Position numbers and translations under genes: made by a program
Shown here: piece after piece, positions 2,922-22,925 of the stretch
Position numbering within the stretch: position 1 is the first letter of the stretch
Layout: every line of letters starts with the position of its first letter
The notes under the pieces: generated by a model
Told to the model about the DNA's origin: nothing
The model's database searches: none
What the model saw: the letters and a program-made list of their open reading frames with translations, nothing else
Source: Lentisphaerota bacterium
Lineage (GTDB): Bacteria > Verrucomicrobiota > Kiritimatiellia > JAAZAB01
DNA: 38,223 nucleotides
Assembly (NCBI GenBank): GCA_012514555.1
Contig: JAAZAB010000323.1
Location: forward strand, 1-38,223
Reading direction: 5' to 3'

Positions 2922-4088
2922 CTAGGGAAGGAATGTCCTGCGCTTTAGCTTGTCGGGAAGGTAATGGTCCAGCACGAAATTGAGGCCGTGCTTTGCGAAC
3001 GCCTGCTGCTCGACGCGGACCTTCATTTCCAGCATGTGGTTAAGGGCCTGCTGCCATTCCTTGTGATGCCTGATGAATGGGTCGTTCTTGAGGGCGTCCC
3101 TTGCGCGCTTTACGTCCACATCCTCGAGCGGGTGCGTGGCGTCCTCGAGCTTGTAGTCGATGATGTCCTGCGGGGTCACGCCGAGGTATTGCGCCTGGGG
3201 CACGCAGAAGAAGCGGTTGATGTGCGCGGCCTGGCCGGATCCGACCTTCAGGGTCCGGTATATGTTGCAGTACCCGTAGGGGTCGCCGTCGGTGAAGGCG
3301 AGCACCGGCAGTTTCTTGTCGTCGGCCAGCCGGCGGATGAACCTGCGGCACGCGCGGGTGGGGACGCCGCTCATCGCGATGAGCACGCAGCGGGCTTTGC
3401 GGTAGTATTGGTGATGGACGAGGCGCTGAAACAGCGAGGCGGTCTCGATGACGAGTATGAACTCGGCGCTCGATTCGAACCGCAGGTGCTCGACCTTTGA
3501 CGGGATGCTCCACGCGCCCGTGCCGAGGCGCTCGCAGTCGATCCGCACGGTCTCGCCGGAGGCCGGGTTCCGGTCGATGACGACAAGCGGCCCGGCCACC
3601 TCTCCGCCGCGCTCCTCCGGGATATAGCCGAGCTGCTCGCGGTTGATTCCGAGCATGGCCTCCATGTCGTCGAGCAGCGAGTCGCTTTCCGGCTGTTCGT
3701 CGAATCGGCATTCGCCCCAGCTCTTGCTGTTGTAGTAGATTTCGCGCTTGCCGGCGATATCGTTCTTGTCGAGCAGGTCTACCTTCGTGGCGGCGAGAAG
3801 GCGCATGCTCTGGGCGAAGGTTTTGACCGTGTTGTAGGAGAGCGTGCGGGTGGACATGCGGTTCAGGATTTCGAAATGACCGCGCTTCAAGTCGTACCTG
3901 ACGTTCGAGAGCGAGCGTATCGGGAACTTCATGCTCGGCCGCGCGTTTCGCTTTACGATGTCGGCGTGAATGCCGCTGGCGATGTCCCGGATGCGCTCGG
4001 AAGCCTCCCGCCTGGACGCCGCCTCGCGCATGTCGGTGGTTTTGCCGCCGCCGTCCGCTTCGCCTTTATTTCTTCGCTTGCCGGGCAT
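2922..4088 (-). CDS. top6A: DNA topoisomerase VI subunit A (Spo11/Top6A)
   Basis: The DNA-cleaving subunit of type IIB topoisomerase, homologous to eukaryotic Spo11. It is 388 residues long, close to the archaeal size. The 5Y-CAP region carries the catalytic tyrosine in KREIYYNSKSW; Y119 aligns with the second tyrosine of the family motif. The Toprim metal site follows, with glutamate in ILVIETASLF (E215) and the DxDP motif TDGDPYGY (D267, D269). All key residues are present, so the enzyme should be active. It starts 18 bp after top6B with AGAGGA ahead of the ATG, an obvious two-gene unit as in archaea. The first 30 residues are a charged, low-complexity extension. Topo VI is scattered and uncommon in bacteria, so transfer from archaea, or ancient retention, is likely. 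Confidence 0.96.
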   Translation of the reverse strand: MPGKRRNKGEADGGGKTTDMREAASRREASERIRDIASGIHADIVKRNARPSMKFPIRSLSNVRYDLKRGHFEILNRMSTRTLSYNTVKTFAQSMRLLAATKVDLLDKNDIAGKREIYYNSKSWGECRFDEQPESDSLLDDMEAMLGINREQLGYIPEERGGEVAGPLVVIDRNPASGETVRIDCERLGTGAWSIPSKVEHLRFESSAEFILVIETASLFQRLVHHQYYRKARCVLIAMSGVPTRACRRFIRRLADDKKLPVLAFTDGDPYGYCNIYRTLKVGSGQAAHINRFFCVPQAQYLGVTPQDIIDYKLEDATHPLEDVDVKRARDALKNDPFIRHHKEWQQALNHMLEMKVRVEQQAFAKHGLNFVLDHYLPDKLKRRTFLP

Positions 4089-4106
4089 ATTGAAATCCTC
4101 TTGTAA

Positions 4107-5819
4107 CTAGCCTGCCTCGAGGTGGGTGCGCTCGAGCATTTTCCGGAGCCGGCCGAGAACCGCGGCCTCGTCCTTGTCGCTCAGGCCGAGGATGGTCTTG
4201 AGCCCGAGCGCGAGATGCGGGAGATACAACGAAATGAAGCTGTGCTTCTTTTCCAGCTCGATCTGGCGCCGCCTGCGGCTCATGTGAACGGACAGGCGCC
4301 GCCCGCACTCCTGGAGCGCGAATGTGATTTCCCTGACGATTTCCGGGTAGTGCGCGATGGCCTCCTTGCTTTCGCTGGTGAACGGGACCCAGACGCTGGC
4401 CATGTGCACCAGGAACACGGCGCGCCCGATCGGAAGCGAGCCCCGCGGCTGGGCGAGCCCGTAGGCTTTCCAGTTCACGCCGGCGACCGCCTTTGTCATC
4501 GCGCAGGCGCCGCCCATGTAGAGCAGGGGCACCTTGTTCGCGAATCGAAGCAGGCGCACGGGCTCATCCCCGGATGCGTCTTCGCCCCCGCCGGGCCCTG
4601 CCAGGGCCACGCCAACCTCGATCTGGAACGGGTTTCCCCGGTACACCTCGGGCGCCCGCGTGACGGCGGTGAAGAAGTCGCCCTGGACTTCCTTTTTCAG
4701 GCCCGCGATGATCTGCGCCTCGCCGATGGGGGACAGGCAGTCCGTTGGCGGCCGCATCAGCCTGGTGTTGTTCATGGCGTTGAACAGGGCCTCGCTTTCC
4801 CGGTGCGCGATGGCCGCGGGCCTGGCGTGCGGGTCGAGCCCGGCGCGCTCGCATATTTCCTGCGCGGCGCGGGCGCTGACGCGGGAGAAGTCCTGCTCGA
4901 GGGCTGATTTAAGGTGTTTCGCGCCGGTGTCCTTCAGCATCTGGATGAGCATGCCAAGCTCCACCCCGTGCGGGTGGGGCTTGATTTCCAGCGGCTGCCG
5001 GGGGCGCTCTTGAACGGCGCGCCGGAATGTGACCCACCCGGCGCCGGCGGGCTGCGGGGCTGCTTCCTTTGCGCTCTCCGCAGTTCCGCCGCCGTTGGCC
5101 GCGGGATCGGCGAGCAGGCAAATCCGGTAGTGGAGATGCAGGTGGGGGTTGACTATGGCACACTGCGCGAGGTATTCGTCCACGGACTGGCGGCCCTTGA
5201 CATAAGCGGCTTCCATCTCGATGGCGACGCAGGTGCCGTGCTTTGAATCGATCGGCTCGGAAGGGACCCCGTCCACGTCGGCCGGGGTGAACCTCGGGGC
5301 CCAGTCGATTTCTGCATCCTTGAGAATAACGGGCTTGTTCTGGCGTGCGTCGATCTGGACTTCAATGTGGTGCGCGACATTGCCCGGCTTGGTTCTGGAC
5401 CGGATGACGGTCGAGTTGCCGGTGGTGAGCTGGCCATACATGCCGGCCGCGCTGATTCCGATGCCCTGCTGGCCCCTGGACATGCGCAGGCGGTGGAACT
5501 TCGAGCCGTAAAGAAGCTTGGCGAAGATTTTCGGAATCTGGCTGCGCACGATTCCCGGCCCGTTGTCGAGCACGGAAACCCGGAAGCGCTTGTCCGCGAC
5601 CTGGACAACCTCCACGGCGATTTCGGGCAGGATTCCAGCCTCGTCGCAGGCGTCGAGGGAGTTGTCCACGGCCTCCTTTACCGCGGTGAGCAGCGCTTTC
5701 TTTGGGTTGTCAAAGCCGAGCAGGTGCCTGTTTTTCAGGAAGAATTCCGAAACGGAAATATCGCGCTGACTCCTGCCCATGGATTCCGCCGTGGCGAAGG
5801 CGGCTTTTTTGGGTGACAT
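4107..5819 (-). CDS. top6B: DNA topoisomerase VI subunit B (Top6B)
   Basis: The ATPase subunit of topoisomerase VI, which clamps and passes a second duplex through the break made by subunit A. The start is set at 5819: AGAGGG lies about 10 bases upstream and the protein then begins MSPKKAAF, although the frame is open to 5948. The resulting 570 residues include the GHKL ATPase motifs EAVDNSLDA (49-57, N-box), DNGPGI (85-90) and RGQQGIGISAAG (115-126), then an H2TH-type middle region (about 300-360) and the transducer domain towards the C terminus. The sequence around the G2 box is the archaeal Top6B type, not GyrB or ParE. It is the first gene of the five-gene operon. No convincing promoter was found in the short gap to the divergent gene at 6048. 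Confidence 0.96.
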   Translation of the reverse strand: MSPKKAAFATAESMGRSQRDISVSEFFLKNRHLLGFDNPKKALLTAVKEAVDNSLDACDEAGILPEIAVEVVQVADKRFRVSVLDNGPGIVRSQIPKIFAKLLYGSKFHRLRMSRGQQGIGISAAGMYGQLTTGNSTVIRSRTKPGNVAHHIEVQIDARQNKPVILKDAEIDWAPRFTPADVDGVPSEPIDSKHGTCVAIEMEAAYVKGRQSVDEYLAQCAIVNPHLHLHYRICLLADPAANGGGTAESAKEAAPQPAGAGWVTFRRAVQERPRQPLEIKPHPHGVELGMLIQMLKDTGAKHLKSALEQDFSRVSARAAQEICERAGLDPHARPAAIAHRESEALFNAMNNTRLMRPPTDCLSPIGEAQIIAGLKKEVQGDFFTAVTRAPEVYRGNPFQIEVGVALAGPGGGEDASGDEPVRLLRFANKVPLLYMGGACAMTKAVAGVNWKAYGLAQPRGSLPIGRAVFLVHMASVWVPFTSESKEAIAHYPEIVREITFALQECGRRLSVHMSRRRRQIELEKKHSFISLYLPHLALGLKTILGLSDKDEAAVLGRLRKMLERTHLEAG

Positions 5820-6047
5820 ATCGGAATCCCTCTTTCGTCCGGCTCGTGCTGCCGGCGGCCGCCCTTGCCGGGGCGCCGGCGCTTTCCGCTGACAAGCCGC
5901 TGAATGGGAAAGCAGTTTGCACCATGCGGGGCCCGGGGTCAAGAACACTCATGAACCATAAAAAGCGGTTGCCGCAACCCTGAAACTTGAATAGATTGGC
6001 CGCTTGTCAGGCGAATGGCGCTTGTTTCATCCGCGGGAGAAATCGGA

Positions 6048-8486
6048 ATGCATGGGTGTCGGGGCATGGGCTTGTCATTGCGGTTTAATCGCGCTACAAC
6101 CGCTCTAGGCCCTTTTTTTGCCGCGCTGGCGCTTTTCGGGCCATGGGCGCCCTGCGGCCCTGTCTTTGCGGCGGCGGTTCATCCTTTTGCATCCGCGGCT
6201 GCGTCCGCGTGGGTTCCCGGAGGCGGCGCGCCCGCGGCGGCGCCGGCCCCGGGCGGGGGGCTTGAATTCCGGTGCGTTGCCGAAGCCGGCGAGCGGACTT
6301 GCTGGGACCGGGCTCTGGACTTGAACCTGGCGGAGTGCGCCGCCATCGAGCTGGACTGCGAAAGCAGGCCGCCGGGCGCGTTTGCGGCAATTTATCTCTA
6401 CCTTCGCAGCGGACGCGGCTGGTATGTCTGGCGCGGCCGCATCAACGAGGCCGGCCGGCAGACGCTGTATTTCCAGCCGTCCCAGGCTTCAGTGGAAGGC
6501 AAGCCGAAAGGCTGGAACGCGATTTCCGGCCTGCGCCTGGCCCTGGTTCGCGGCGCCGGGCCGGAGGGGCGCCTGGCGGTGTTCGGCATGCGCGCCTCCG
6601 AGTGCCGGGTGGCGATCGTGCGCGCCGGCGAGTCTGCCGGCGGGGCCAAAGAGCAGGCGGCGGCCCGCGGCGCCTGCGCCCGGGTCAGCCGCTGGCTTTT
6701 CGACATGGGCGTGGCAAACCAGACGCTTGACGAGGCGGCCGCCGCTTCAGGGGGACTGGAGAAGATGACGCTGGCCATCCTGCCATACAATCCCGATGTG
6801 CCGGGTCGCCTGCTTCGGGCGCTGCGCCGCTTCGAGCGCGGCGGGGGCCGGCTGATGGTCTGTTATTCCTCCGACGCGGGGCTTGCCGGCTTGATGCGCA
6901 TGGAGCTTGGCCCCTACAAGGCCGCCGGGAATCCGGGGCAATGGAGCAGCATGGTTTTCAGCCGCGATGCGCCGGCCGGGGTTCCATCGCGCGTTGGACA
7001 GGAATCCGGGAACATCAGGGTTGTCAGGCCGCTCCCGCCGGACTCGCGCGTGATCGCATGGTGGGCTGATGCCTCGGGAAAAACCGGCGATGATCCTGCC
7101 TGGGTCCGATCGGGCGCGGGCGTATGGATGACGCACATCCTTCAGAACGGAGATGACGAGAACAAGAAGCGCATGATGGCCGCCCTGCTTGGCGCATACG
7201 ACCCGGAGGTTCTGCGCGCCGCCGCAAGGCGCGCTGCGGCCCGCGCCGTCAATGTCGGGCCCCATGGCGGCCTGGCTTCGGCGCGCGCCATTCTTGCCGA
7301 GGCGGCCACAGCCGGAACCGGGGCTGCCGCGCGCGAGCGCCTCGCCCGCGCCGAGGCGCGGGAGAGCGCCATGCGCGAGGCTTTGCGCGGAGGGCGCCAT
7401 ATCGAGGTGCTGGAAGCGGCTGCTGATATAAAGGCTTTGCTCACAGAGGCTTACGCTCTTGCCCAGAGCCCCACCGCAATTCCTTTCCGGGGCGTCTGGA
7501 ATCATTCGGGCATGGGCTTGTATCCCGGGGATTGGCCCCGAACGTGCCGCGAACTGAAGGCTGCGGGCATTCGCGCCGTGTTTCCCAACGTGCTGTGGGC
7601 CGGGCAGGCTCACTATCCAAGCCAAGTTGTGCCCTGCTCGGACATTGGCCGCATGTACGGGGACCAGGTGAAAGCCTGTGTTGCGGCCGCCCATGCCGAA
7701 GGCCTTGAGGCGCATGCATGGAAGGTTTGTTGGAACCTTGGCGGCGCGCCCGCGGCGCACGTGGCGCGGCTTAAGAAGGAGGGGCGGCTCCAGCGATCGG
7801 CCAACGGCGCGGCTCACATCTGGCTCTGCCCTTCGAATCCGGATAATGTCCGCCAGGAACTGAACGCCATCATGGAACTGGTTCGCAACTATCCCGTGGA
7901 TGGCGTTCACCTCGATTATGCGCGGTTCCCGGATTCTCAGTCCTGCGTCTGCCCCGTTTGCCGGAAGAACTTCGAAGCCAAACGCGGCCGGGTTGTCCGG
8001 CGCTGGCCTGCCGACGTGATCACGGGAGCGCTTGCAGACGAATACAGGGCCTGGCGCAGTTCCGTAATGACCGGTTTCATCAGGGCGGCGCGCGGCGTGA
8101 TGCGAAGCGCCAGGCCGGCCGCCAAGCTCTCCGCGGCGGTGTACGGACAATATCCCCAATGCGCCGGGACCATGGGGCAGTCCTGGGGCTCATGGGTGGA
8201 GGAGGGGCTGGTGGATTTTGTCTGCCCCATGAACTATGACACGGACCCGGCGTCTTTCGCCGTCTCCGTCCGGAAGCAGCTTGCCCTGCCGCGGGCGCGC
8301 GGAAGGATATACCCCGGCATCGGCGTGACCGCCGTCGAAAGCCGGCTGCCGCCGGACCAGGTGATTGCGCAAATTCGCGCGGTTGCCGACGCCGGCGCCG
8401 CGGGATTCATGCTTTTCGACCTGAATCCCACGCTCCAGCGGGAGACGCTCCCGATTCTGCGCCTCGGCATAACGCGCCCGGAATGA
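6048..8486 (+). CDS. Secreted glycosyl-hydrolase-like GHL10 (YngK/DUF187-type) protein
   Basis: An 812-residue exported protein. The start at 6048 is preferred over 6015 because GGGAGA lies about 7 bases ahead. A signal peptide covers about residues 1-43, ending near VFAAA. Residues about 60-185 look like a beta-sandwich domain. About 190-370 resembles the glutamine-amidotransferase-like domain often found in such proteins, and 370-470 is helical and alanine/arginine-rich. The C-terminal third (about 478-805) is a GHL10 TIM barrel: FRGVWNHSG, VDGVHLDYARFP, FVCPMNYD, YPGIGV and GFMLFDLNP are typical positions. The substrate is unknown; family members probably act on envelope or plant-type glycans. 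A CPVC pair (residues about 636-639) sits just after the LDYARFP strand. It is divergent from the Topo VI operon and is followed by tRNA-Cys. Confidence 0.88.
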   Translation: MHGCRGMGLSLRFNRATTALGPFFAALALFGPWAPCGPVFAAAVHPFASAAASAWVPGGGAPAAAPAPGGGLEFRCVAEAGERTCWDRALDLNLAECAAIELDCESRPPGAFAAIYLYLRSGRGWYVWRGRINEAGRQTLYFQPSQASVEGKPKGWNAISGLRLALVRGAGPEGRLAVFGMRASECRVAIVRAGESAGGAKEQAAARGACARVSRWLFDMGVANQTLDEAAAASGGLEKMTLAILPYNPDVPGRLLRALRRFERGGGRLMVCYSSDAGLAGLMRMELGPYKAAGNPGQWSSMVFSRDAPAGVPSRVGQESGNIRVVRPLPPDSRVIAWWADASGKTGDDPAWVRSGAGVWMTHILQNGDDENKKRMMAALLGAYDPEVLRAAARRAAARAVNVGPHGGLASARAILAEAATAGTGAAARERLARAEARESAMREALRGGRHIEVLEAAADIKALLTEAYALAQSPTAIPFRGVWNHSGMGLYPGDWPRTCRELKAAGIRAVFPNVLWAGQAHYPSQVVPCSDIGRMYGDQVKACVAAAHAEGLEAHAWKVCWNLGGAPAAHVARLKKEGRLQRSANGAAHIWLCPSNPDNVRQELNAIMELVRNYPVDGVHLDYARFPDSQSCVCPVCRKNFEAKRGRVVRRWPADVITGALADEYRAWRSSVMTGFIRAARGVMRSARPAAKLSAAVYGQYPQCAGTMGQSWGSWVEEGLVDFVCPMNYDTDPASFAVSVRKQLALPRARGRIYPGIGVTAVESRLPPDQVIAQIRAVADAGAAGFMLFDLNPTLQRETLPILRLGITRPE

Positions 8487-17925: not shown

Positions 17926-18816
17926 TTGAAAATATATCTGGATGGCAAACTTGTCCCGGAAAAAAAGGCCATGGTGTCGGTCTTCGACCATGGTCTTCTC
18001 TACGGCGACGGCGTGTTCGAGGGAATCCGGGCCTACAACGGAAGGGTGTTCAAGCTTGAGGAGCACATAGACCGCCTGTTCCGCTCGGCCAAGGCCATTG
18101 ACCTTGAAATTCCGATGACCCATGCGGCCATGTGCAGTGCGCTGCTGGCAACCTGCCGCGCGAACAGGATGCGCGACGGTTACATCCGCCTGGTGGTCAC
18201 GCGCGGAGTGGGAAATCTGGGCCTGAACCCGTACACGTGCAAGAAGCCGGGGATAATCATAATAGCCTCGAAAATCCAGCTTTATCCCAAGGAGCTGTAC
18301 GAGCGAGGCATGCGCATGGTGACTTCCGGAACGCTGCGGAATCACACCGAGGCCCTCAGCCCGAACATCAAGAGCCTCAACTACCTCAACAACATACTGG
18401 CCAAGATCGAGGCGATCAACGCCGGCGTGTACGAGGTCGTGATGCTCAACCAGCAGGGGTTTGTGGCGGAGGCCACGGGCGACAACATCTTCATTGTGAC
18501 CGGGAACAGGCTCCGAACGCCTCCCATTTCCGCGGGCGCCCTCGAGGGGGTTACCCGCAACACGGTAATGTGCCTGGCCCGGGAGATCGGGATGGACGTG
18601 GCCGAGGAGGTGCTCACCCGCTACGACCTATACACGGCCGACGAGGTGTTTCTCACCGGCACCGCCGCGGAGATCATAAGCGTTGTGGATATCGACCGCC
18701 GCGTTATCGGGTCAGGGAAGCCGGGCCCCCGGTCGAGGGCGCTCGGCGCACGGTTCCACGAATACGCCGGCTCAACGGGCGCGCCAATATACGCGCGCGG
18801 GGGGAAGGCAGGATGA
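17926..18816 (+). CDS. ilvE: Branched-chain amino acid aminotransferase (class IV)
   Basis: A 296-residue PLP enzyme that interconverts branched-chain amino acids and 2-oxoacids. I choose the TTG at 17926: GGGAGGGG lies 6-7 bases before it, and the protein then begins MKIYLDGKLVPE, the normal family start. An ATG at 17908 and a TTG at 17890 are less well placed. Motifs: FDHGLLYGDGVFEGIR (20-35), TRGVGNLGL (92-100), the PLP lysine in SPNIKSLNYLN (K149), and EATGDNIF. D-amino-acid transaminase or aminodeoxychorismate lyase share the fold, but the motif set favours IlvE. The ATGA overlap with mcsA places it at the head of the mcsA-mcsB-clpC operon, an odd partner. Confidence 0.9.
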   Translation: MKIYLDGKLVPEKKAMVSVFDHGLLYGDGVFEGIRAYNGRVFKLEEHIDRLFRSAKAIDLEIPMTHAAMCSALLATCRANRMRDGYIRLVVTRGVGNLGLNPYTCKKPGIIIIASKIQLYPKELYERGMRMVTSGTLRNHTEALSPNIKSLNYLNNILAKIEAINAGVYEVVMLNQQGFVAEATGDNIFIVTGNRLRTPPISAGALEGVTRNTVMCLAREIGMDVAEEVLTRYDLYTADEVFLTGTAAEIISVVDIDRRVIGSGKPGPRSRALGARFHEYAGSTGAPIYARGGKAG

Positions 18817-19337
18817 AGTGCGAGATGTGCCGCGATCAGGAGGCCCTGGTCCACGTCACCCAGGTGGTTGACGGCAAGGTCAAAAAGCTGCACCTCTGCG
18901 AGGCGTGCGCGGTAAAGAGCGGGCTGGACGTCGGGAACCCGGCCGCGCTGACCGACATACTGCTGGGCGTGGGCCTCCAGAAGCCGGCGCCGGGCAAGCC
19001 GCCCGCGCCCGCGCCGGACCGGACCTGCCAGCATTGCCAGATGCGGCTTTCTGATTTCAGGAAGACCTCGCGGCTGGGCTGTCCCGTCTGCTACGATTCG
19101 TTTGCCGGGGAGCTGGAGCTGATGCTCGAGAGCATGCACCGCGGGACGCAGCATGTCGGCAAGGTTCCCGTGCGCGCGGATGGCTCCTGCAGGAAGCAGG
19201 CCGAGCAGGCCGGGCTGCGCAAGGCCCTGGCGGCGGCCGTTGCCGCTGAAAACTACGAGGAGGCGGCACGGGTCCGCGACCTGATCCGGCTGTCGTGCGG
19301 CGGGGCCGGGCCGCAGCCGACCCGGCCGAAGACATGA
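18813..19337 (+). CDS. mcsA: McsA-like zinc-finger activator of the arginine kinase
   Basis: A 174-residue protein with the McsA layout. There are two N-terminal pairs of CxxC zinc ligands (CEMC, CEAC), a second set (CQHC, CPVC), a proline-rich linker between them (residues about 58-70), and a C-terminal UVR motif (ALAAAVAAENYEEAARVRDL). In Firmicutes McsA activates the protein-arginine kinase McsB and helps recruit ClpC. It overlaps ilvE and mcsB by 4 bp each. The starting ATG at 18813 matches the MKCEMC beginning of the family. Confidence 0.93.
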   Translation: MKCEMCRDQEALVHVTQVVDGKVKKLHLCEACAVKSGLDVGNPAALTDILLGVGLQKPAPGKPPAPAPDRTCQHCQMRLSDFRKTSRLGCPVCYDSFAGELELMLESMHRGTQHVGKVPVRADGSCRKQAEQAGLRKALAAAVAAENYEEAARVRDLIRLSCGGAGPQPTRPKT

Positions 19338-20462: not shown

Positions 20463-22925
20463 ATGAGCGAGTTCACCCCCCGCGCGCAGCAGGTGCTTCA
20501 GCTTGCGCGCAAGGAAGCCGAGCGCTTCAACCATTCATACGTGGGCACCGAACACATCCTGCTCGGGCTGATCGCCCTGGGCGAGGGCGTGGCCGTCAAC
20601 GTGCTTGAGCGCATGGGCGTGGACCTCGAAACCCTCCGGATCGAGGTTGAGAAGGCGGTCGGGCAGGGACCGGAAACCAAGACTGTGGGCAGCCTGCCGA
20701 TGACGCCGCGGGCGAAGAAAGTGCTAGCCCTGGCCGCCGGCGAAGCAAAGTCGCTTAGCCATAGCTACGTCGGCACCGAGCATATTCTGCTCGGGCTCCT
20801 GCGCGAGGAAGAGGGCGCTGCGGCGCGCGTGCTCAAGAATTTGAACGTTGACCTCGAACGCGCCCGCATTGAGGTGCTGAAGGAGCTGGATCCCAACTTC
20901 GAGCCACAAGATGAAGCGGCCCAGGCGGAAGGCAAGCCCGGCGCCAGGCAGCAGGATTCCTCGAAGACCCCGGCCCTGAACGCCTTTGGCCGGAATTTGA
21001 CGGAGATGGCCCTGAAGAAAGGGCTCGACCCCGTCATCGGCCGCGCGGACGAGATAAGGCGGGTCATACAGATTCTGTGCCGCCGGACCAAGAACAACCC
21101 CGTTCTCATCGGCGAGGCCGGGGTGGGCAAGACGGCGATCGTCGAGGGGCTTGCCCAGTTCATCGCGGACGGGGAGGTTCCGGAGCTGCTCCGCGGCAAG
21201 AACGTCATCGCGCTGGACATGGCGCTCATGGTCGCCGGAACCAAGTACCGGGGCCAGTTCGAGGAGCGGATCAAGCAGGTGATGGACGAGGTCCGCCGGG
21301 TGAAAAACGTGATCCTGTTCCTTGACGAGCTGCACACCATCGTGGGCGCCGGCTCGGCCGAGGGCGCCATGGACGCCGCGAACATCATCAAGCCCGCGCT
21401 GTCCCGGGCGGAGCTGCAGTGCGTCGGCGCCACGACCATGACCGAGTACCGGAAGCACATCGAAAAGGACGCGGCTCTCGAGCGGCGCTTCCAGGTCGTG
21501 CTCGTGGACGAGCCGACCGCGGATGAGACCATCGAAATTCTCAAGGGGCTCCGGCCCAAGTTCGAGGAGCACCACAAGCTCAAGTTCCTTGACGAGGCGC
21601 TCGTGGCTGCCGTCCGGCTGGCCGATCGCTATATCACCGGCCGGTTCCTGCCCGACAAGGCCATCGACGTCCTTGACGAGGCAGGGGCGGCCGTGCGCAT
21701 CGGGATAATGACCAGGCCGCCCAACCTGAAGAAGGTTGAAAAGAAAATCGCCGACTTCAAAAAAAGCAAGGACGAGGCCATCCGGGCCCAGCAGTTTGAG
21801 GAGGCCGCCAGGTGGCGCGACGAGGAGCGCGGCGAAAAGGAAAAGCTTGAAAAGATGACGGCCAGGTGGCGCAAGACCCAGGACAAGAAGGCCGTCTGCG
21901 TGCGCGAGCCCGAGATCATGGAGGTGGTCTCCAAGTGGACCGGGGTGCCCCTGGCCAGGATGGACAAGGGCGAACTGGCCCGCCTGCTCAGCATGGAGAA
22001 GGATCTCGAACGCGTGGTCATCGGGCAGTCGGACGCGGTCGCCGCGATCTCCAAGGCGCTTCGCCGGTCCCGGGCCGACCTGAAGGACCCGCGCCGCCCG
22101 ATAGGCTCGTTCATATTTCTCGGCCCGACCGGCGTGGGCAAGACCCACCTTGCCAAAGCCCTGGCGGAGTTCATATTCCATGATCCCGACGCTCTTGTTC
22201 AGCTGGATATGTCGGAATACATGGACAAGTTCATGGTCTCGCGCATGGTGGGCTCGCCGCCCGGCTACGTGGGACACGACGAGGGCGGGCAGCTCACGGA
22301 AAAAGTCCGGCGCAAGCCCTATTCGGTGGTGCTGTTCGACGAGGTCGAAAAGGCGCACGCTGACGTGATGAACATACTGCTCCAGATCCTGGAGGAGGGG
22401 ATGCTCACGGACAGTTTCGGCAGGCGCGTGAGCTTCCGCAATACGATCGTCATTCTCACTTCCAACCTTGGGCTCAACCTTGCCGGCAAGTCCGAGGGGC
22501 TGGGCTTCGGCCAGGCGTCCGCCTCGGCTGACTTCGCCCGGATCAGGGATAAGACGCTGGACGAGGCCAAGCGCCTTTTCAAGCCGGAACTGCTGAACCG
22601 GCTGGATGACATCATCGTGTTCAGGTCCCTGGACAAGGCGTGCATTGAGCGGATTCTCGACTTGGAGTTTGCCAAGGTGATGGCCCGCGTAGCGGCCAAG
22701 GGCGCTCAGGTCGGGCTGTCGCAGGAGGCCCGCGAATTCCTGATCGAGAAGGGCTTCGACGGCGCCAGCGGGGCCCGGAACCTGCGCCGGGCTGTCGAGA
22801 GGTATGTCCAGGATCCCATGGCGGAGGAAATCCTGTCCGGGCGCCTCGCGATGGAGAAGGACATCGAGGTCCGGCGCGGGAAGGACGGCCTCCAGTTCGT
22901 ACAACCGTCCGCGGCCTCCAAGTGA
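20463..22925 (+). CDS. clpC: ATP-dependent Clp protease ATP-binding subunit ClpC
   Basis: An 820-residue Hsp100 unfoldase. The N-terminal domain has two Clp_N repeats with the twin [10 protein letters not shown] blocks (about 27-36 and 102-111), the phospho-arginine docking region in Bacillus ClpC. AAA1 has Walker A GEAGVGKT and the [13 protein letters not shown] block. The middle domain carries a UVR-type coiled coil ([15 protein letters not shown]). AAA2 has GPTGVGKTH and [12 protein letters not shown] ClpP-binding loop should lie near [15 protein letters not shown]. It partners with McsA/McsB for degradation of arginine-phosphorylated proteins. No CtsR box was found upstream. Confidence 0.97.

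Follow-up and report, generated by a model that had tools for sequence, protein, structure and literature searches.

The window, by which we mean the whole stretch of 38,223 nucleotides analysed here (contig JAAZAB010000323.1 of the Lentisphaerota bacterium assembly GCA_012514555.1, class Kiritimatiellia), encodes both subunits of a DNA topoisomerase VI (Topo VI), a type IIB enzyme known chiefly from archaea and plants. The genes for subunits B (Top6B) and A (Top6A) lie on the same strand, with 18 bp between the end of the former and the start of the latter (Table 1).

Table 1. Topo VI genes and key codons located in the window
Feature	Position	Strand	Description or basis
Top6A, DNA topoisomerase VI subunit A	2922..4088	-	388 aa, winged-helix cleavage domain and Toprim; PF04406/PF20768/PF21180
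Top6A catalytic Tyr119 codon	3732..3734	-	structure alignment, conservation
Top6A Toprim Glu215 codon	3444..3446	-	position check, conservation
Top6A Toprim DxD (Asp267-Gly-Asp269) codons	3282..3290	-	position check, conservation
Top6B, DNA topoisomerase VI subunit B	4107..5819	-	570 aa from ATG; GHKL ATPase, H2TH region, transducer
Top6B N-box Asn53 codon of the GHKL site	5661..5663	-	position check, conservation
Top6B G1 box DNGPG (85-89) codons	5553..5567	-	position check, conservation
Top6B G2 box RGQQGIG (115-121) codons	5457..5477	-	position check, conservation
Top6B transducer Lys485 codon (ESKEAIA motif)	4365..4367	-	structure alignment, conservation

Profile searches matched Top6A to PF21180, PF20768 and PF04406, and among solved structures the nearest was M. 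jannaschii Top6A (1D3Y, E 6e-103), compared with an E value of 2e-57 for the M. mazei enzyme (2Q2E). The catalytic Tyr119, which is the second Y in REIYY, and the Toprim residues Glu215, Asp267 and Asp269 were confirmed at the positions assigned to them in the initial annotation. All four were invariant in 65/65 sequences from the class and in 27/27 other close homologues. Top6A therefore combines the catalytic tyrosine of a 5Y-CAP/WHD domain with the Toprim glutamate and DxD motif that characterise Topo VI (PF04406 together with PF21180).

The longest reading frame of Top6B opens at a GTG at 5948, which is a mechanical extension; we placed the start at the ATG at 5819 because a GA-rich site lies upstream of it and it coincides with the start of archaeal Top6B. 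The protein matched PF09239 and HATPase_c and scored above the cut-offs of the NCBIfam top6B models NF003218 and TIGR01052 (615 vs 274 bits and 475 vs 381, respectively). M. mazei Top6B was both the closest solved structure by sequence (E 5e-137) and the best structural match to the AlphaFold2 model (mean pLDDT 76; Foldseek E 6e-54). The GHKL boxes (E49/N53, D85-G89, G119-G121 and G195) and the transducer Lys485 are present and conserved where the aligned homologues cover them, as expected from the full ATP site proposed earlier. Profiles, conservation and fold match thus agree in identifying GHKL boxes and a Topo VI-B transducer. Between them, a collinear alignment with residues 219-497 of M. 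mazei Top6B, across the H2TH region, and a helical segment at about residues 285-377 of the model point to a predicted H2TH domain. TopVIB-like partners of Spo11 are devoid of this domain. A Spo11/TopVIB-like complex was considered and rejected, the B partner in the window being canonical in both its probable H2TH domain and its intact GHKL site.

With both subunits present in the window, intact and carrying every catalytic residue, the initial description of a complete two-subunit Topo VI is borne out. The enzyme has the same subunits, catalytic residues and domain order as archaeal Topo VI (M. mazei 2Q2E/9O0G, M. jannaschii Top6A 1D3Y and S. shibatae 2ZBK), but unlike these it is found in a bacterium alongside gyrase. 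Its Top6B is shorter than that of M. mazei (570 vs 621 aa), and its model has a low-confidence linker near residues 239-256. Taken alone, the window enzyme is a genuine Topo VI and unremarkable within its family, bacterial Topo VI having already been published from 17 families (PMC11302465).

The surrounding genes are of a bacterial, Gram-negative type, as had been noted from the flanking gene content. They include IspD, a class II aminoacyl-tRNA synthetase (D/K/N type), a ClpC-type ATPase, a lipid A acyltransferase, OmpA, a DUF362 protein, a GspE-type ATPase (T2SSE) and a SpoU methylase, all on the same contig. Neither galU nor the GHMP kinase gene, both downstream of the pair, had homologues within the flanks of any of 80 related loci, some of which are short. 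As the flanking genes are not conserved, we claim no functional operon partner. Divergent from Top6B, positions 6015-8486 (+) encode a putative secreted GHL10/DUF4015 glycosyl-hydrolase-like protein; among the other flanks searched, only those of L022 also have it close to Topo VI. The ClpC-type AAA+ ATPase (20463-22925, +) comprises Clp_N, AAA, AAA_2 and ClpB_D2-small domains and a UVR motif, and a 401-aa frame upstream of it (18132-19337) has a UVR motif of its own.

The closest homologues of the window proteins are 69-81% identical (about 70-80% for Top6A) and are spread across Kiritimatiellia; most of the PVC-group MAGs that encode them bear the titles Kiritimatiellae, Lentisphaerae or Verrucomicrobia. 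Topo VI was detected in 26/38 close relatives and, across 146 genomes of the class, Top6A in 72, Top6B in 75 and either subunit in 77, whereas none of 192 genomes of other classes in a phylum-wide sample had a match above the cut-off. The initial statement that bacterial examples are few is consequently outdated, both from these 72/146 genomes and from the at least 17 bacterial families already published (PMC11302465). In the Top6A tree, the check suggested at the outset, the class forms a single clade (SH-aLRT 100) on a long stem, beside sequences from Scalindua, Auribacterota and a Phycisphaerae member; Woesearchaeota and Nanoarchaeota fall outside this bacterial group. This placement agrees with the published cluster of bacterial Topo VI near DPANN archaea (PMC11302465). 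Within the class, Top6A distances track gyrase distances (Mantel r 0.45, p 0.001). At depth the root of the tree cannot be relied on, the archaeal sequences taken from the PDB being long branches, and we therefore name no archaeal lineage as donor. Three further Top6A loci (L060, L067 and L070) come from MAGs titled Nanoarchaeota, Woesearchaeota or Parcubacteria; the Parcubacteria-titled L070 is nested in the Scalindua clade and appears to have been mis-binned.

Two rival readings can be weighed on these data. The Toprim/WHD fold of Top6A is common to nucleases (PMC13040014, PMC10123090), and the gene could accordingly encode a nuclease-type relative, Spo11-like or akin to the MksG/Wadjet/Gabija defence nucleases, and not a topoisomerase. 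We regard this as very improbable, given that the adjoining gene encodes a full-length Top6B with GHKL and transducer domains, that no Mks or Wadjet genes lie beside the pair in the window and that the sequence matches are to Topo VI, with E values down to 1e-184. The genes could also be foreign to the bacterium, through archaeal contamination or a chimeric assembly, as the MAG is fragmented (571 contigs) and the nearest archaeal homologues, at about 60-64% identity, belong to DPANN MAGs. The chance of this is negligible: Top6A was found in class genomes from unrelated samples as one clade apart from DPANN, the neighbours on the same 38-kb contig are bacterial, and GC (0.63/0.65) and GC3 (0.86/0.84) of the pair agree with those of the other window genes. 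We thus rejected the contaminant or chimera, which had been named beforehand as the finding that would overturn the annotation.

Both subunits were detected in 70 of the 77 Topo VI-positive genomes of the class. The two genes are linked in 52 of these 70 and lie on different contigs in the other 18, in several cases well inside the contigs, so the pair is retained though unlinked. The separated loci reveal that the Top6A-Top6B operon has been broken up in several lineages. The subunit genes are far apart on different large contigs in G012, G022, G029, G033, G035, G063 and G081 (families f4, f12 and f14). In one near-closed 3.1-Mb genome that lacks Topo IV (locus L230, G019:C1:1423400-1427600), frameshifts disrupt both Topo VI genes and leave gyrA and gyrB intact, a pattern that reflects either decay of Topo VI or indel errors of long-read sequencing.

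The search for gyrA/gyrB and parC/parE proposed in the initial annotation returned gyrase as an adjacent gyrB-gyrA pair on contig C169 of the window's own genome; it succeeded in full for parE and in part for parC, of which there is an apparent start at a contig end. ParE is encoded on a 4.1-kb contig (L279, G000:C79:1-4112) and clusters with the ParE proteins of families f25 and f6, in which, as in other relatives, parC directly follows parE; the gyrase tree places families f1 and f25 in a single clade. Beyond the parE stop the contig runs for about 63 nt; an overlapping GTG start reads MKEQQELNLGLSGNEPAAPAAR, similar to the beginning of ParC in f25 genomes (MSEQPELFSGDEL...), until the contig ends. 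Given parE and this truncated parC-like start, the genome most likely has gyrase, Topo IV and Topo VI, with parC cut by the contig end. Six relatives in the same family (G002, G003 and G005-G008) have gyrase and Topo VI only. A further genome, G004, has a ParE unlike that of the window genome, on a contig of lower GC (L280, G004:C437; 0.54), with a repetitive stretch upstream of parE (157-642) that encodes repeated peptides (SGMCKHSGGVCPGRG.../CAGILTNSAPG).

Bacteria ordinarily rely on topoisomerase IV to disentangle replicated chromosomes. We counted GyrA/ParC by PF00521 and GyrB/ParE by PF00204 in the same 146 class genomes, many of which are draft MAGs. Among those at least 90% complete, 27 of the 51 Topo VI carriers also had Topo IV and 24 had gyrase only, compared with 50 with and one without Topo IV among the 51 non-carriers (Fisher 6e-8). 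Genes missing from drafts are controlled for internally by the non-carriers, only 2% of which are without Topo IV. Genomes with neither enzyme numbered one (G021), against 12.5 expected. Moreover, the association persisted with one genome per family (p=0.005) or per genus (p=0.001). A losses-only count on the gyrase tree of 99 genomes had Topo IV lost 13 times, each in a clade with Topo VI members, and with genomes at least 85% complete 11/12 losses fell on Topo VI-positive branches (binomial p 0.01-0.05). Likelihood tests in which the rate of Topo IV loss depends on Topo VI were run in four settings, with p values of 0.049, 0.013, 0.009 and, for a 1-df test on genomes at least 90% complete, 0.25; with the loss rate of each enzyme made dependent on the other, they were 0.063, 0.035, 0.033 and 0.003. 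An independent-pairs test had too few informative pairs. After correction for relatedness, support for a dependence between the two enzymes is moderate. Nearly all genomes of the class that lack Topo IV have Topo VI, a pattern suggestive of repeated exchange of one enzyme for the other. As about half of the carriers keep both, their tasks need not be identical.

From genome comparison, the best reading of Topo VI in this class is that of a chromosome decatenase able to replace Topo IV. By homology of subunits, order and catalytic residues, Top6A and Top6B would form an A2B2 enzyme in which, as in the characterised archaeal Topo VI, two Top6B subunits, with ATP bound, would clamp one DNA duplex; the Tyr119 residues of the two Top6A subunits would then cut a second one, leaving the 2-nt overhangs expected of a Topo VI, with the Toprim acids holding Mg2+, and the first duplex would pass through the cut before the break is resealed. 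Its main cellular task would be the unlinking of sister chromosomes after replication and the resolution of DNA crossings. The class may have gained Topo VI once, or from a single source, within the bacterial cluster neighbouring DPANN archaea. Topo IV would have been kept at first, giving three type II enzymes, and this dual state may be the intermediate from which several lineages later shed Topo IV, wherever Topo VI could assume its work; Topo VI would be absent from the lineages that depend on Topo IV. We think it fairly probable, on balance, that this is a working Topo VI, a decatenase overlapping Topo IV in function, acquired once and followed by repeated Topo IV loss in the class. The biochemistry of the family is in line with such a role: in vitro, Topo VI is a preferential decatenase that drives duplex passage with ATP, is slow on supercoils and prefers DNA crossings and catenanes (PMC8837201). 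M. mazei Topo VI complements an E. coli parE-ts mutant, as reported from unpublished data, and the same rationale has already been proposed by Allen & Maxwell for bacteria without Topo IV (PMC11302465).

The principal alternative is that Topo VI is functional but accessory, acting for example in recombination or under transcription stress, that Topo IV became dispensable for other reasons, such as slow growth and a small genome in which gyrase carries out the decatenation, and that the association reflects shared ancestry. Several observations speak for it. Topo VI-only genomes are smaller than dual ones (median 3.05 vs 3.95 Mb, p 0.002), the phylogenetic tests are moderate, and strand passage by Topo VI proceeds slowly in vitro (PMC8837201). 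Topo IV can also be lost without Topo VI: of the 192 genomes sampled from other classes of the phylum, 25 contain just one PF00521 gene and lack Topo VI, and H. pylori, too, does without Topo IV (PMC3325230). The rule seen in the class is therefore not universal. Most of these gyrase-only Verrucomicrobiota are at least 97% complete; they include members of families f50, f52, f54, f58, f61, f64, f66, f67, f69 and f74. An accessory role sits poorly, however, with the single class genome devoid of both enzymes and with some 12-13 separate Topo IV losses on Topo VI backgrounds. It also sits poorly with Topo VI bacteria outside the class (Scalindua, Auribacterota, Phycisphaerae and others), 13/14 of which have a single GyrA-type gene and are likewise without ParC, the fourteenth having two full-scoring GyrA-type copies. 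We consider the accessory role a rather unlikely explanation, clearly behind that of a decatenase that can stand in for Topo IV.

Like the bacterial enzymes described by Allen & Maxwell in 2024, which span 17 families including Planctomycetota (Pirellula, Sedimentisphaera), the Topo VI of Kiritimatiellia is horizontally acquired and occurs alongside a full gyrase (PMC11302465). Neither Kiritimatiellia nor Verrucomicrobiota is mentioned in that work, and our literature search found no paper linking Kiritimatiellia with topoisomerase VI. Coexistence of Topo VI with Topo IV had been reported only in Pseudomonadota and Terrabacteria (PMC11302465); about 34-36 PVC genomes carry both, and the presence of gyrase, Topo IV and Topo VI in PVC genomes corrects that statement. 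Three points are new here: Topo VI is a trait of Kiritimatiellia across the class, its distribution there is complementary to that of Topo IV, and PVC genomes exist with three type II topoisomerases.

Topo IV (ParC/ParE) shares the cellular role proposed for Topo VI, sister-chromosome decatenation, but it is a type IIA enzyme with an unrelated cleavage subunit, and many of the same genomes encode it in a parE-parC pair of its own. Evolution could, in this class, have exchanged an essential bacterial enzyme for a non-homologous one several times over, a proposition that we hold tentatively, at slightly less than even chances. The role of Topo VI in bacteria has been openly stated as unknown (PMC11302465). 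With Topo VI-only, Topo IV-only and dual species side by side in a single class, it becomes testable whether Topo VI is the decatenase in these bacteria and what permits the switch.
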